From Nitrospira sp. (GTDB lineage: Bacteria > Nitrospirota > Nitrospiria > Nitrospirales > Nitrospiraceae), in contig CP092079.1 in NCBI GenBank assembly GCA_022226955.1, forward strand, positions 1,209,053 to 1,273,052: 64,000 nucleotides of DNA. The letters run 5' to 3'. Below, piece by piece: positions 9,061 through 16,661 of this stretch. The translations under genes were made by a program, and so were the position numbers. Below the pieces are notes generated by a model. It was not told the DNA's origin, searched no databases, and saw only the letters and a list, made by a program, of their open reading frames with translations. Within the stretch, counting starts at the first letter, position 1; each line of letters starts with the position of its first letter.

Positions 9061-9474
9061 TCACAACGATGACTTGGCAGGCGATGTATGAGACACGAGT
9101 ATTTGAGGAATCTTGATGAAGTGGGCATCCGTAGTCACCACCGTCAAGCCGTACTGCATGGCCGAGGCGGCAATCCACATATCGTTGGTGGGAATCGGTG
9201 TTCCGGCCGTCCATAGACCGTTCAGAATCACCGCATATCGCTCCGCCGTGTCTTCATCCACGGGCACAATCGAAACTCTCGATGATGCCAAGACCTGCTT
9301 CAACCGCTCTTCATTTTTCTGCCTGGCTCGCCCCCGCAAGAATCCAACCCGTAACTCCCCCAACACCACGGGGTTGAGAAAGATTGCCTCCGCCGTCTGA
9401 ATCGCCTCTTTCACCGCAATATCGCCGCGCATAAATGCAGAGTAGGCCGAGGTGTCGAGTAAGATCCGGCTCAC
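9061..9474 (-). CDS. vapC: VapC-type PIN-domain toxin
   Basis: A 137-residue PIN-domain RNase. The acidic residues of the Mg2+ site are D7 (ILLDTSAYSAF), E40 (PVVLGELRVGF), D98 (IPTNDMWIAASA) and D116 (VTTDAHF). The GTG at 9474 is chosen as start because it overlaps the vapB stop (GTGA) and has GGAGGA seven bases upstream. The order antitoxin then toxin and the overlap are typical of VapBC, in which the toxin cleaves specific tRNA or rRNA. All catalytic residues are present. Confidence 0.9.
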   Translation of the reverse strand: MSRILLDTSAYSAFMRGDIAVKEAIQTAEAIFLNPVVLGELRVGFLRGRARQKNEERLKQVLASSRVSIVPVDEDTAERYAVILNGLWTAGTPIPTNDMWIAASAMQYGLTVVTTDAHFIKIPQILVSHTSPAKSSL

Positions 9475-9728
9475 TTCCACTCCTCCGGATCGATGGCGCG
9501 CTGCCGGGCAAGCGTCTTTTCGAATGCTTCGGCCTCCTGCTTGCTCCATGATCCGGCCAGGGCGTCCAGATCATGATACCGACGCACCGGCCGTGCCTCC
9601 GATTCGCCGAGGTGATCCTGCAAAAGACTGATCACCACCTTATTGACGCTCACGCCCTTTTTCTTCGCCCGCTGACGGATTGTGCGATCCAGCGAAGCTG
9701 GAAGATTTCTCAATGTGACCGCTTTCAT
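9471..9728 (-). CDS. vapB: VapB-type ribbon-helix-helix antitoxin
   Basis: An 85-residue protein starting at ATG 9728 (GGGAGGG upstream). The N-terminal KAVTLRNLPASLDRTIRQRA followed by KKKGVSVNKVVISLL is a ribbon-helix-helix DNA-binding fold of the FitA/VapB kind; the rest is the toxin-binding tail. It would repress its own operon through the palindrome at 9740-9757, 12 bases upstream of the start. Confidence 0.88.
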   Translation of the reverse strand: MKAVTLRNLPASLDRTIRQRAKKKGVSVNKVVISLLQDHLGESEARPVRRYHDLDALAGSWSKQEAEAFEKTLARQRAIDPEEWK

Positions 9729-9739
9729 AGTCCCTCCCC

Positions 9740-9757
9740 ATGCATCGAAGGATGCAT
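9740..9757. promoter_or_regulatory. Candidate VapB operator palindrome
   Basis: ATGCATC-GAAG-GATGCAT, a perfect inverted repeat with 7-bp arms just upstream of vapB. A third half-site-like GATGCA follows at 9764-9769. Position and symmetry fit autoregulation by the RHH antitoxin. Confidence 0.6.
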
Positions 9758-9851
9758 CATCACGATGCAAGAGTAGCAACGCTTCGTTCGGCTGTCAATC
9801 ACGCATCGGGAAAACACTACGTCTCGGCTCAACCAGAGGGCGCTAGGATCA

Positions 9852-12089: not shown

Positions 12090-13208
12090 TCAATTCATAG
12101 CGCAGGAAGTCTTAACAAGTGCATCTGGTCCAGCAGACTTTCCATCAAGGAACAAGGATGGCTTGCCCGACCAATCTAGCCATTGCCCGCATTGATAGTC
12201 ATAGAGCCGACAAGCAGCCATGACCTGGCGAATGCTGGCCAAACTTACGTCATGGGTAATCACTTGAGAAGGGAAAGCGGTGGCCAGGAAATGCTGAGCT
12301 CTTTTCAGATTATATAGCGGTATACGAGGAGCGATATGGTGTGCGGGATGTTCCAATATATTTAGCAGTAGAGCGCCGAGCCAGCGTGGACAGACAACAT
12401 GAACTGTGTCGGGCAGTCGATCACAGAAGGCGCCACGTTCTTCAGCTTGCTGAAGCCATCTTACGCGTGGATGTGTATGATGGAGGTAGATGACCATCCC
12501 CATCGCTAGATTCCAGGTCAAGAAAGGCACAAGGAGCCCCAGCACAACTAAGCCCACGGACTCTTGCCCATTGGTGCCCTGCTGAAAAATTGCCAGCACC
12601 TCGAAGACAAGAAATCCTGCCACCAAAAGGCGATCCATAGCGGCTTTTAGTCGTGGTAACTGACCTCGCTCATCTGCTCCTGGCATAACCAGATGCCGCC
12701 ACCAAATTTCGATCAGGTAGTAGGCTCCTACCCCCCAGAAAGATCGATAGAACTTCTCGAGAGCACGCCTGAACGGAGAAAGAGATTGAAACTCTTCATA
12801 TGAGTACGGAGTCCAGACATAGTCCTTCCCCTTCAGATTGGTGAAGCCATGATGCAGTCTATTGTGCCCAAGCTCCCAGAATGTGAACGGGGTTAACGAG
12901 GGAAGCATCGCAAGTCGACCAACGATCTGATTAACAATACTGCTCGACGTGAAACTTGCGTGACATGCGTCATGGCCAATAATGAATAAGACCGCAATCA
13001 ATAGACTATTGAGAGCACACCAGACAGCCATAGCACCCACAGGCCATCGAGTTGGCCCTAGAAGGAAAATAGAAGTCATGTACAGCACGAATGGAGGAAC
13101 AAAAATAGCTAATGCTTTTCCTGTCGACCGCTCGAACACATCGACCGGCAAACTAGCCCTCACATCTTCCATTGACTGGGACAACTTAGTCTTCAAAACC
13201 CACCACAC
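12090..13208 (-). CDS. Membrane fatty acid desaturase
   Basis: A 372-residue integral membrane di-iron desaturase. Three histidine boxes are visible: HDACH (about residue 100), HNRLHH (about 135) and a C-terminal HPAHH (about 300), with an extra LHHTHP stretch. Four or more hydrophobic segments surround them. The layout is that of acyl-lipid delta-12/omega-type desaturases. The start is uncertain: GTG 13208 gives the full frame, ATG 13172 is possible, and neither has a good Shine-Dalgarno. It precedes the methyltransferase on the same strand and follows a small luxR gene. G+C is low. Confidence 0.88.
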   Translation of the reverse strand: MWWVLKTKLSQSMEDVRASLPVDVFERSTGKALAIFVPPFVLYMTSIFLLGPTRWPVGAMAVWCALNSLLIAVLFIIGHDACHASFTSSSIVNQIVGRLAMLPSLTPFTFWELGHNRLHHGFTNLKGKDYVWTPYSYEEFQSLSPFRRALEKFYRSFWGVGAYYLIEIWWRHLVMPGADERGQLPRLKAAMDRLLVAGFLVFEVLAIFQQGTNGQESVGLVVLGLLVPFLTWNLAMGMVIYLHHTHPRVRWLQQAEERGAFCDRLPDTVHVVCPRWLGALLLNILEHPAHHIAPRIPLYNLKRAQHFLATAFPSQVITHDVSLASIRQVMAACRLYDYQCGQWLDWSGKPSLFLDGKSAGPDALVKTSCAMN

Positions 13209-13329
13209 GCCACTGAGGGGAAGAAACAGTGATTGCCACTACCTGACATTTCCTCTACCTCATTCGCCATCCTACGTTCAGTGTCCGCCATTTGGCTGAC
13301 ATGCTATGGAATCGTTCGCGTTCGTGTTT

Positions 13330-13650
13330 CTACTCATTGTCTTTCCGCATGATCTCCAAGTACACTCTCGCTGCCAGCTCGCCTCTGGACCGGACGCCGA
13401 GTTTTTTGAAGATCCGTTCCAAATGCGTTTGAATCGTCCGAGCACTGACGTGGAGTTGCGATGCAACTTCTTTGTTCGTTAATCCCCGCGCCACCAGCCC
13501 CGCGACCTCCGCTTCACGAGCGGTTACGCCCTCCAACAGCACCGGCACGGCATCGACTCCACCAATCGCTTGCAGCAGTGGCGTCCCGTTCGTGGATTGC
13601 GCACTCACGTCATCCAACATCCGTTTTCTGGCTCCAATTGCACAATTCAT
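13330..13650 (-). CDS. Small LuxR/GerE-type regulator
   Basis: A 106-residue protein that is mostly a C-terminal GerE helix-turn-helix (about residues 42-98): VTAREAEVAGLVARGLTNKE then VASQLHVSARTIQTHLERIF. The first 40 residues form no known sensor or receiver domain, so it may be a single-domain regulator or respond by oligomerisation. It is read away from the two larger luxR genes, across a 145-base region with a palindrome and an AG repeat. The desaturase gene lies 121 bases downstream. Confidence 0.85.
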   Translation of the reverse strand: MNCAIGARKRMLDDVSAQSTNGTPLLQAIGGVDAVPVLLEGVTAREAEVAGLVARGLTNKEVASQLHVSARTIQTHLERIFKKLGVRSRGELAARVYLEIMRKDNE

Positions 13651-13691
13651 ATCCGGGCGCTCTTCTAGCAGACCGAGGAAGTCCGGAGAAA

Positions 13692-13707
13692 TACGCCACC
13701 TGGCGTA
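13692..13707. promoter_or_regulatory. Candidate LuxR-type operator palindrome
   Basis: TACGCCA-CC-TGGCGTA, a perfect 16-bp palindrome with 7-bp arms between the divergent luxR genes. The same heptamer TACGCCA occurs again at 13759-13765. Position and repetition suggest a binding site for one of the LuxR proteins. Confidence 0.55.
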
Positions 13708-13729
13708 CAGCGAAACACCTAGAAAATTT

Positions 13730-13749
13730 AGAGAGAGAGAGAGAGAGAG
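13730..13749 (+). repeat. (AG)10 dinucleotide microsatellite
   Basis: Ten perfect AG units in the divergent luxR intergenic region, ending 46 bases before the ATG at 13796. Such tracts change length by slippage, so promoter spacing or the leader could vary between cells. Confidence 0.95.
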
Positions 13750-13795
13750 CAGATTTCATACGCCACTGTGCGGACAATGAAACGGCAGAGGCGCA

Positions 13796-14887
13796 ATGAT
13801 GGAACGGCTGACCAGCAAACAGCTACGGCAGGTCTCAGAGTTTCTACGCCAGCTTTATCAACTGCGTACGCACGAGGAATTTACCAGTCACCTGATCGCC
13901 GCGTTGCCAACGATTACGGAAGGAGAGTTCACCTCCTACAATGAATATCCAGCGGATGGCAAAGCCATTGTCTACAAATCTGACCAACTCCCCTACTGCC
14001 CCGATCCATCACATTATGCGACGGTGCTTCAGACTCACCTCCAGGAGCATCCCGTCGTCACACATTGGCGCACCACACAAGAGGAGTCTGCGCAGATCAT
14101 TTCTGATTTCGTCCAGCCCAGCCAATTTCGCGCGACGACGCTATACAACGAATTCTACAAACCGCTCAAAATGTCCTACCTCCTCTTCATGGGGCTCAAG
14201 GCCGACAACAAAAGGCTACTATCGATCAGTCGGCATCGTCACGACAGAGAGTTTCGCGAGTCCGACAAAACGGTCTTCAATGCCATTCGACCCCATCTCC
14301 AACAAGCGCTGAAAAACGCGTTAACCGTGACTCATCTGCACGACCAACTGGCCGCCATGGATCTGGCCATGGAAGCCGGACATCGTGCGATGCTCTCGGT
14401 GTCCGCCGACGGGCGCATCCACGTGGCCGCGCCTTATGCCCACGCGCTGCTCGCGCAATACGGCATGGGGCTGAAACACGGCGCGGATTGGCTGCCGCCA
14501 GTGTTGCGAGCCTGGCTGCGCCGCCAGATCAGACACCTCACCACGACTGACGACGTCGCCCCTTCGATCGCACCGCTGACGGTCACTGGCCAAGCAGGGA
14601 CGCTGACGATCCGATTAATTCCCAAGGGATCGCAGTATCTACTGACATTGAAGGAAGATCGCTCACCGACGCCGCCGAACCTTCGCCATCTGGGGGTGAG
14701 CGCCAGGGAAACGGAAATCCTCGGCTGGGTCGTCCAGGGCAAGACAAATCCGGAGATCGGCATCATCCTCGGCATCAGCCGCCGCACGGTGCAAAAGCAT
14801 TTGGAGCGCATCTATCTGAAACTTGGCGTCGAAAATCGACATGCCGCGATCAGTCTCGCGCTCTCTTCCATGCCAGGTGGTGCCTAA
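13796..14887 (+). CDS. LuxR-family regulator, tandem copy 1
   Basis: A 363-residue regulator. The C-terminal GerE domain (about 300-358) reads LGVSARETEILGWVVQGKTN then ISRRTVQKHLERIYLKLGVE. The N-terminal 170 residues look like a GAF-like sensor region, with FRATTLYNEFYKPLKMSYLL in the centre; no AHL-binding signature (W..Y...Y...D) is evident. It is a close paralogue of the next gene, 3 bases downstream. Two ATGs (13796, 13799) are possible, both after AGAGG. The cognate signal is unknown. Confidence 0.88.
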   Translation: MMERLTSKQLRQVSEFLRQLYQLRTHEEFTSHLIAALPTITEGEFTSYNEYPADGKAIVYKSDQLPYCPDPSHYATVLQTHLQEHPVVTHWRTTQEESAQIISDFVQPSQFRATTLYNEFYKPLKMSYLLFMGLKADNKRLLSISRHRHDREFRESDKTVFNAIRPHLQQALKNALTVTHLHDQLAAMDLAMEAGHRAMLSVSADGRIHVAAPYAHALLAQYGMGLKHGADWLPPVLRAWLRRQIRHLTTTDDVAPSIAPLTVTGQAGTLTIRLIPKGSQYLLTLKEDRSPTPPNLRHLGVSARETEILGWVVQGKTNPEIGIILGISRRTVQKHLERIYLKLGVENRHAAISLALSSMPGGA

Positions 14888-14890
14888 CAG

Positions 14891-15997
14891 ATGGAACATC
14901 TGACTTCCCATGACTGCCGCCGTGTGCTTCGATTCCTGCACCAGCTCTATGAGGTTCGTCCACACGCGGAGTTCATCACCGACTTGGTCGCCGCACTTCC
15001 TACCGTTATCGCGACGGACGTGAGCAGTTACAACGAAGTCGATTCCGCCCAGCGATTTGCCGCGTACCTTGGATGGCCGCCGGACCACCCGGACATTCCC
15101 GACGCCCAAGAGATTCTTGGACGTTATGCGCACCAAAGCCCGCTGGTCACTTTTGCCGAACGCGCAACAACCATCGAGGCGCATAAGATGACCGACTTCG
15201 TTACTCAACGGTCGTTTCGCGCCACCGACCTTTTCAACGAGTTCTATCGCCCCCTGCAGCTCCCCTACAATATGGGTGTGAAGCTCACCAGAAGCGCCGA
15301 TCCGCTGATCGCTGTCAGCCTGCTTCGTTCGCGCCGGGACTTCTCGTCACGCGACATTGCGCTCCTCGACGTCCTGAGCCCGCATCTTGTCCAAGCCTAC
15401 CGAAATGCCACGGCAGTGACTCGGCTGCACTGCCGGCTGGATGTGGGACACCATGCTCTCGCGGTTCATCATGAAGGCCTCGTATCCATTACGCGGGATA
15501 GACGCATTTGTTTTTCCACTCCCTTAGGCGAGCGCCTGATGGCGAGATATGACAATGATCCTGCCCGCGATCAAAATCATCTCCCCCCACGTCTGGCTCG
15601 ATGGGTTCGCCGGGAATTGGCCCACCGTCACACTGAGGATTTTCTTCACCGGCCAAGCTTGGCTTTCCGGATCACCGGCTCATCCGGAGTCCTGACAGCG
15701 AGACTCGTACAACATCACGAGCAGTTCCTTATCCTACTTGAAGAAACACCACACACCTCCACGCATCGATACTGCGCGATGTGGGGACTCACGGCCCGCG
15801 AATCAGAGATTCTTGAGTGGGTCGTTCAAGGCAAGACGAATCCGGAGATCGGCATGATCCTCGGCATCAGCCACCGCACCGTGCAAAAACATCTGGAGCG
15901 GATCTACATCAGACTTGGAGTCGAGAATCGGCATGCAGCCATGGCTGTGGCACTGGAAGTACTGCAGCGGGATAGAAATGGAAAGAGCTACGACTGA
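14891..15997 (+). CDS. LuxR-family regulator, tandem copy 2
   Basis: A 368-residue paralogue of the preceding gene with the same architecture: N-terminal GAF-like region with FRATDLFNEFYRPLQLPYN, and a C-terminal GerE domain with LTARESEILEWVVQGKTNPE and ISHRTVQKHLERIYIRLGVE. The DNA-binding helices of the two copies are nearly identical, whereas the sensor halves differ, which suggests shared targets but different inputs. Its last 10 bases overlap the displaced mtnA fragment on the other strand. Confidence 0.88.
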   Translation: MEHLTSHDCRRVLRFLHQLYEVRPHAEFITDLVAALPTVIATDVSSYNEVDSAQRFAAYLGWPPDHPDIPDAQEILGRYAHQSPLVTFAERATTIEAHKMTDFVTQRSFRATDLFNEFYRPLQLPYNMGVKLTRSADPLIAVSLLRSRRDFSSRDIALLDVLSPHLVQAYRNATAVTRLHCRLDVGHHALAVHHEGLVSITRDRRICFSTPLGERLMARYDNDPARDQNHLPPRLARWVRRELAHRHTEDFLHRPSLAFRITGSSGVLTARLVQHHEQFLILLEETPHTSTHRYCAMWGLTARESEILEWVVQGKTNPEIGMILGISHRTVQKHLERIYIRLGVENRHAAMAVALEVLQRDRNGKSYD

Positions 15998-16106: not shown

Positions 16107-16661
16107 CTATGGGGTCACGATTCGAAACCGGAATTGCTCCCACTCCTCCGACAGACCTGCCCGATTCGCCAATGTCGCAACAGCCGTCAGCGCACCGGCA
16201 TCCGGCGCCTGCGCCGCGCAAATCTGTTTAGCATCGAGTACATCGCGCGGCCCTCCGGCATAGAGTTTCAGCAACACCAATGACTCCCATGCCACAACAG
16301 GCACCACACAACCCAAGACAGTCACCTCCTGCATCCGTTCAAACACAACCGCGGAGAGCCGTCGGGGCAGAAAGATCAATTGAACGGGAATCGTCCGTTC
16401 ACGCATGCCGCTAGAAGCCGTAATCACTCCGAGCAACGGATCACCCAGGTCTCCCGCTCGATAGGTCCCACGAAGAACCTCCGCCAGCGATTGCGGCGAT
16501 CCGGCTTGCAGCGCGACGGCAAAGTCGATGTCCCGAGTTGCTCGCGGCTCTGCCCACACCGAAACGGCAAGCCCGCCGATCAGCGCAAATTGTTCGAGAA
16601 GGCCCTGAGTGCGAGCCTTCGCGAGTCGCTCAACTATGTCGTGGAGGGCTTCTTGGAACAT
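16107..16661 (-). CDS. AbiEii-like nucleotidyltransferase
   Basis: A 184-residue protein with a nucleotidyltransferase core: FALIGGLAVSVWAEPRATRD supplies the GG and D44-x-D46 follows in DIDFAVAL. Proteins of this kind are found as AbiEii/AbiGii-type toxins or as partners in type IV-like toxin-antitoxin pairs. The C-terminal half (VAWESLVLLKLYAGGPRDVL and on) is usual for the group. It overlaps the 64-residue gene upstream by 28 bases, and both sit between two copies of the mtnA 3' end. Role as toxin is inferred. Confidence 0.75.
   Translation of the reverse strand: MFQEALHDIVERLAKARTQGLLEQFALIGGLAVSVWAEPRATRDIDFAVALQAGSPQSLAEVLRGTYRAGDLGDPLLGVITASSGMRERTIPVQLIFLPRRLSAVVFERMQEVTVLGCVVPVVAWESLVLLKLYAGGPRDVLDAKQICAAQAPDAGALTAVATLANRAGLSEEWEQFRFRIVTP

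Follow-up and report, generated by a model that had tools for sequence, protein, structure and literature searches.

The perfect (AG)10 tract that separates divergent luxR genes in this Nitrospira window (the window being the whole 64-kb stretch of DNA that was analysed) is, we conclude with moderate confidence, a slippage-prone microsatellite that arose in this lineage within the leader of a long luxR gene pair, where its length would have a graded effect on expression or none and would not act as an on/off switch. Three related Nitrospira loci carry the neighboring operator and the long luxR gene without the repeat, and the repeat is placed downstream of a conserved -10-like block. Readings in which slippage switches the regulators were weighed against this explanation.

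A rare AG tract between divergent luxR genes

The tract occupies positions 13730-13749 and is 100% pure. Its exact coordinates and the gene calls on both sides confirmed the initial annotation of a perfect (AG)10 run between divergent luxR genes, and the three LuxR genes reported around it were all recovered, with one short gene on the minus strand and two long genes on the plus strand. As was also first described, the tract ends 46 bases ahead of the tandem pair (ATG at 13796); it ends 49 bases ahead of the ATGGAAC start common to the orthologs, which corresponds to the second ATG of the first long gene (13799).

Pattern searches identified (AG)10 as the sole AG run of at least 8 units in the single-contig genome of 3,635,119 bp. 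The (AG)5 pattern was found at seven other loci (one match each), (AC)6 gave no match in the genome, and the longest CG run found was approximately 14 nt; this census consisted of pattern searches for AG, AC and CG. Markov models of order 1-3 trained on the window predict between 4e-6 and 1.4e-5 AG-class runs of at least 20 nt per 3.6 Mb. The tract is far beyond chance expectation and has the pure, slippable-length repeat of an SSR contingency locus. Across the genus, 12 of 79 genomes (the source genome counted) contained an AG tract of at least 7 units, one each and at unrelated loci; tracts of this kind are thus uncommon in Nitrospira but do recur. A search of viral contigs with the flank of the tract returned no match.

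Some AG and CT tracts in other Nitrospira genomes fall within reading frames. In one of them, an outer-membrane beta-barrel ORF (PF13505; MEKLMTHRLWILSLSLLALSSQPAHS; L155:1468-2124) has a (CT)8 tract within its signal peptide (G023:C1:2594244-2594259), an arrangement that resembles known translational phase-variable surface proteins. An (AG)14 tract comes immediately after an ATG and shares the frame of a signal-peptide-like ORF (MRERERE...GNKVKFLISAFMILGFLFATQSFAG; L147:1163-1531, minus strand; G021:C45:70420-70447), where a frame switch is possible. Additionally, a GDSL-lipase-like ORF that contains a hydrophobic stretch carries a CT run at its N-terminus (L157:140-1558, minus strand; G099:C10:8945-8960).

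The short gene (13330-13650, minus strand) encodes an HTH-only LuxR protein of 106 aa. Its homology to relatives, at 77%, begins at ATG 13650, which is 79 bp beyond the tract and has the sequence AGAAGAG upstream. On the plus strand, long LuxR 1 (363 aa, 13796-14887), with a C-terminal GerE HTH, is followed after a gap of 3 bp by long LuxR 2 (368 aa, 14891-15997), which also has a GerE HTH, is 42% identical to LuxR 1 and is probably co-transcribed with it. In an AlphaFold model of LuxR 1 (mean pLDDT 82.8, pTM 0.59), the N-terminal domain resembled the ligand-binding domain of VqsR in a Foldseek comparison (TM 0.70 by target length, 4.0 A), and other quorum-sensing LuxR ligand domains were matched as well. 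Neither long protein matched the autoinducer-binding Pfam domain PF03472 (Autoind_bind). We rejected a LuxI/LuxR acyl-homoserine-lactone pair at this locus because there is no linked luxI and no PF03472 match, and the fold is only similar.

The sole luxI homolog found in the genome (PF00765, 64 bits; G000:C1:2010407-2011367) is outside the window, approximately 0.79 Mb from the locus, and adjoins another LuxR-type HTH match; the genome may produce an acyl-homoserine lactone that could be sensed by these LuxR solos. Also near the cassette are an AbiEii-like nucleotidyltransferase ORF (16107-16661; Pfam match to PF08843) and a PIN-domain toxin accompanied by a small ORF that resembles an antitoxin (9061-9779), the latter two called by inspection of their sequences.

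A conserved operator and orthologous loci

A putative LuxR-type binding site, operator A, is present at 13690-13709 as a 20-bp dyad (AATACGCCACCTGGCGTACA) with the core TACGCCACCTGGCGTA (TACGCCA-CC-TGGCGTA) at 13692-13707. The dyad has arms of 7 and was missed by an inverted-repeat scan with arms of at least 9; its perfect match occurs once in the genome. A second putative site, operator C (TGTCCGCCATTTGGCTGACA, 13282-13301), follows the 3' end of the short luxR and is bordered on its other side by a fatty-acid desaturase-like gene (12090-13208, minus strand). A degenerate operator-like sequence with 3 mismatches, site B (13759-13776), lies across the tract from operator A, at a distance of 67 bp centre to centre. 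The extended dyad pattern had five matches in the 64-kb window, at these three places and within 500 bp, with 0.29 expected. A wide operator regulon was rejected, as a genome scan at 3 mismatches returned 116 matches compared with 251 for a control pattern, per strand. The best matches that are also conserved all belong to this locus, and credible sites are therefore limited to the local ones. We infer a small autoregulated LuxR cassette with predicted operators A and C. The conserved operator beside the tract, previously unremarked, makes this cassette testable.

The position of operator C is conserved in the relatives SJ32 and G093. The site is kept in three genomes (13282-13301; L145:1747-1766; L146:5994-6013) with a different gene beyond it in each, namely the desaturase-like gene here and, in the relatives, which lack that gene at this place, a 406-aa ORF with no Pfam match in one and an outer-membrane barrel in the other. 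It looks as if the regulated gene beyond operator C has been swapped between genomes, and the desaturase-like gene is a possible local target of the cassette. In a further Nitrospira, a short LuxR-type HTH ORF likewise has an operator-like dyad (TGTACGCCATCTGGCGCATT) at its end (L218:5073-5092; G001:C241).

When 59 genomes were searched at the DNA level with the entire intergenic region, the self match alone was returned, so orthologous loci had to be identified by protein searches. These retrieved SJ32 (G076, JADLEJ010000008.1), G093 and G061, the last with the long gene alone, and the upstream regions of all three could be aligned with that of the window. The operator A dyad is kept in SJ32 and G093, and in G061 one half-site is changed to TAACGTA. 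The block that follows the dyad is also kept, with TA at the same position (ACCTAG; ACTTAT in G061). Relatives commonly, though not obligatorily, share the repeat of an SSR contingency locus; here it is absent from the orthologous site in SJ32, G093 and G061, where the longest AG runs are 6, 2 and 2 bases as opposed to 20 here. The distance from the dyad to the shared ATGGAAC start is 91 bp in the window and 64, 55 and 61 bp in the three relatives, whose upstream regions are 27-36 bp shorter.

Because the relatives have no repeat and the dyad-to-start distance is longer here, the tract is an insertion or expansion specific to the lineage of the window, and it falls in the least conserved stretch. 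The leader of SJ32 is imperfect and GA-rich (GAGAGCGGGAGAGAGACGCAGAGAG) and looks like an unexpanded precursor type. The insertion in the window is probably recent and unstable in length, with at most a tuning effect on these regulators. The initial annotation called for a comparison with related strains; in three other Nitrospira species the locus and operator were found, and the tract was missing from all three. Since these relatives retain the operator and long luxR, the unit does not require the tract, and the suggestion that it could switch a whole regulatory unit on and off is not supported.

The repeat as probable leader sequence and alternative explanations

A candidate -10 element (TAGAAA, 13720-13725, plus strand) overlaps the conserved ACCTAG block, and the relatives have TAGCTA, TAGGCA and TATACT at the same spacing. 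If this candidate is the -10, transcription of the long pair would start near 13732, inside the repeat, and the repeat would form the first bases of the leader. With its position downstream of the operator and the -10-like block, the tract probably belongs to the initially transcribed region and does not separate promoter elements. The initial annotation had noted that long dinucleotide runs in promoters are a classic basis for phase variation. The tract is indeed extreme, intergenic and adjacent to the apparent core promoter and operator, but it lies downstream of the -10-like block, and phase variation keeps a minority of the probability.

Under the leader explanation, slipped-strand mispairing most likely grew the tract between the operator and -10-like block on one side and the long luxR start codon on the other, and the tract would now occupy the transcription start and early 5' leader of the long pair. 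Its length would be expected to be unstable, and a change in length would most likely result in a graded change in expression of the pair or no change. Any effect could be exerted through leader length, initial transcribed sequence or operator-to-start spacing, and the outcome could range from silent, through graded as in uspA2 (PMC7302503), to a stronger modulation as in nadA (PMC2791445). Leader RNA structure governed by repeat number was rejected as a further route, as the predicted fold and start-site accessibility were almost unchanged for n = 8-14. Two observations count against the leader explanation. A scan for a sigma-70 consensus promoter found none, although an absent consensus would suit an activator-dependent promoter. 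The weak site B just past the tract would also be easier to reconcile with a spacing-dependent switch than with a passive leader.

The foremost alternative, which we consider unlikely, is promoter phase variation of the nadA/NadR kind, in which LuxR dimers would bind operator A and site B, the repeat number would set their spacing and helical phase, and slippage would create variants with high and with low expression of the long luxR pair. The conservation of operator A and the presence of site B across the tract are consistent with this, and there is precedent both for repressor sites that flank a repeat (PMC2791445) and for repeats between divergent genes, as in hifA/hifB (PMC2651432). Site B, however, is degenerate (3 mismatches) and has no counterpart in the relatives, which regulate the same genes without either the tract or site B.

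It may instead be that the repeat is a neutral product of slippage, without effect on expression and tolerated between functional elements. We regard this as improbable and rank it next. Its absence from relatives and its position in the least conserved stretch both agree with neutrality, as do the 11 other Nitrospira genomes in which single AG tracts of at least 7 units occur at unrelated loci, as in sporadic expansion. Against neutrality, the single such tract in 3.6 Mb is placed upstream of a regulator, and an extra 20 bp close to a transcription start would in many cases have some effect. Also unlikely is the proposal of a slippage-driven operator-spacing switch, in which the repeat number between two LuxR-type operators would set the output of the autoregulated LuxR cassette.

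Coding phase variation was rejected for the long and the short luxR alike. At every repeat number tested, the start of the long luxR is preceded by an in-frame stop, 18 nt before it and past the tract; because this stop separates the two, a frame shift of long luxR by repeat number is excluded. The conserved start of the short luxR is itself downstream of the tract. An extended short LuxR that is translated from an upstream ATG (13757-13759, minus strand) through (CT)n, and is off at n = 10, is very improbable: of the repeat numbers tested, just n = 8 and n = 11 (n = 2 mod 3) make the frame continuous with short LuxR, giving an ORF of 141/143 aa that at n = 10 ends after 49 aa, but one in three repeat numbers would open the frame by chance, the ATG and CT run are missing in orthologs, an upstream indel breaks the frame in SJ32, the similarity between the window and G093 farther upstream coincides with operator DNA, and the short LuxR has its own start at 13650, where homology begins.

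SSR phase variation is known chiefly in host-adapted bacteria, and of the 8 papers in which a full-text search found it together with Nitrospira, none was on the subject (judged by title). If true, an operator-spacing switch would make a regulator pair whose folds resemble those of quorum receptors phase-variable in an environmental chemolithoautotroph, and proof that a nitrifier switches a sensor-regulator pair would point to bet-hedging in nitrifying communities. If neutral, the tract would be of use as a microsatellite for strain typing and would warn against taking repeats in promoters for switches.

Comparison with known LuxR solos and repeat systems

The long LuxR proteins are similar to the LuxR solos VqsR, QscR and SdiA in their predicted N-terminal fold (VqsR), their C-terminal GerE HTH and the lack of a linked luxI. 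They differ in that they are tandem paralogs of approximately 362 aa with an extra sensor-like domain and no PF03472 match.

In Haemophilus influenzae, a (TA)n repeat lies in the promoter region of hifA/hifB, where length alleles have been observed and repeat length is proposed to alter the spacing between -35 and -10 (PMC2651432). The window shares with this system a dinucleotide repeat within the upstream region common to two divergent genes (PMC2651432), but here the repeat is AG rather than TA, is downstream of the putative -10, serves regulators rather than pilins and is lacking in relatives. A spacer of the hifA/hifB type is also argued against by the conserved -10-like block upstream of the tract, and the scan yielded no consensus promoter.

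For nadA of Neisseria meningitidis, which has (TAAA)n upstream of the core promoter, length-dependent expression and binding of the NadR repressor have been shown (PMC2791445). The likeness is a repeat beside operators, possibly flanked by two, whose number would alter operator spacing. The repeat here is a dinucleotide, and of the sites on its two sides operator A is strong and conserved, whereas site B is degenerate and not conserved.

The uspA2 gene of Moraxella catarrhalis has a strain-variable (AGAT)n repeat 132 bp upstream of the ORF, with a change in mRNA of approximately 3.4-fold at most (PMC7302503). UspA2 is a surface protein and the effect of its repeat was measured, whereas the genes here encode regulators. 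Both loci have a purine-rich repeat upstream of an ORF (46 bp here), and the graded mRNA response of uspA2 serves as the model for the leader explanation.
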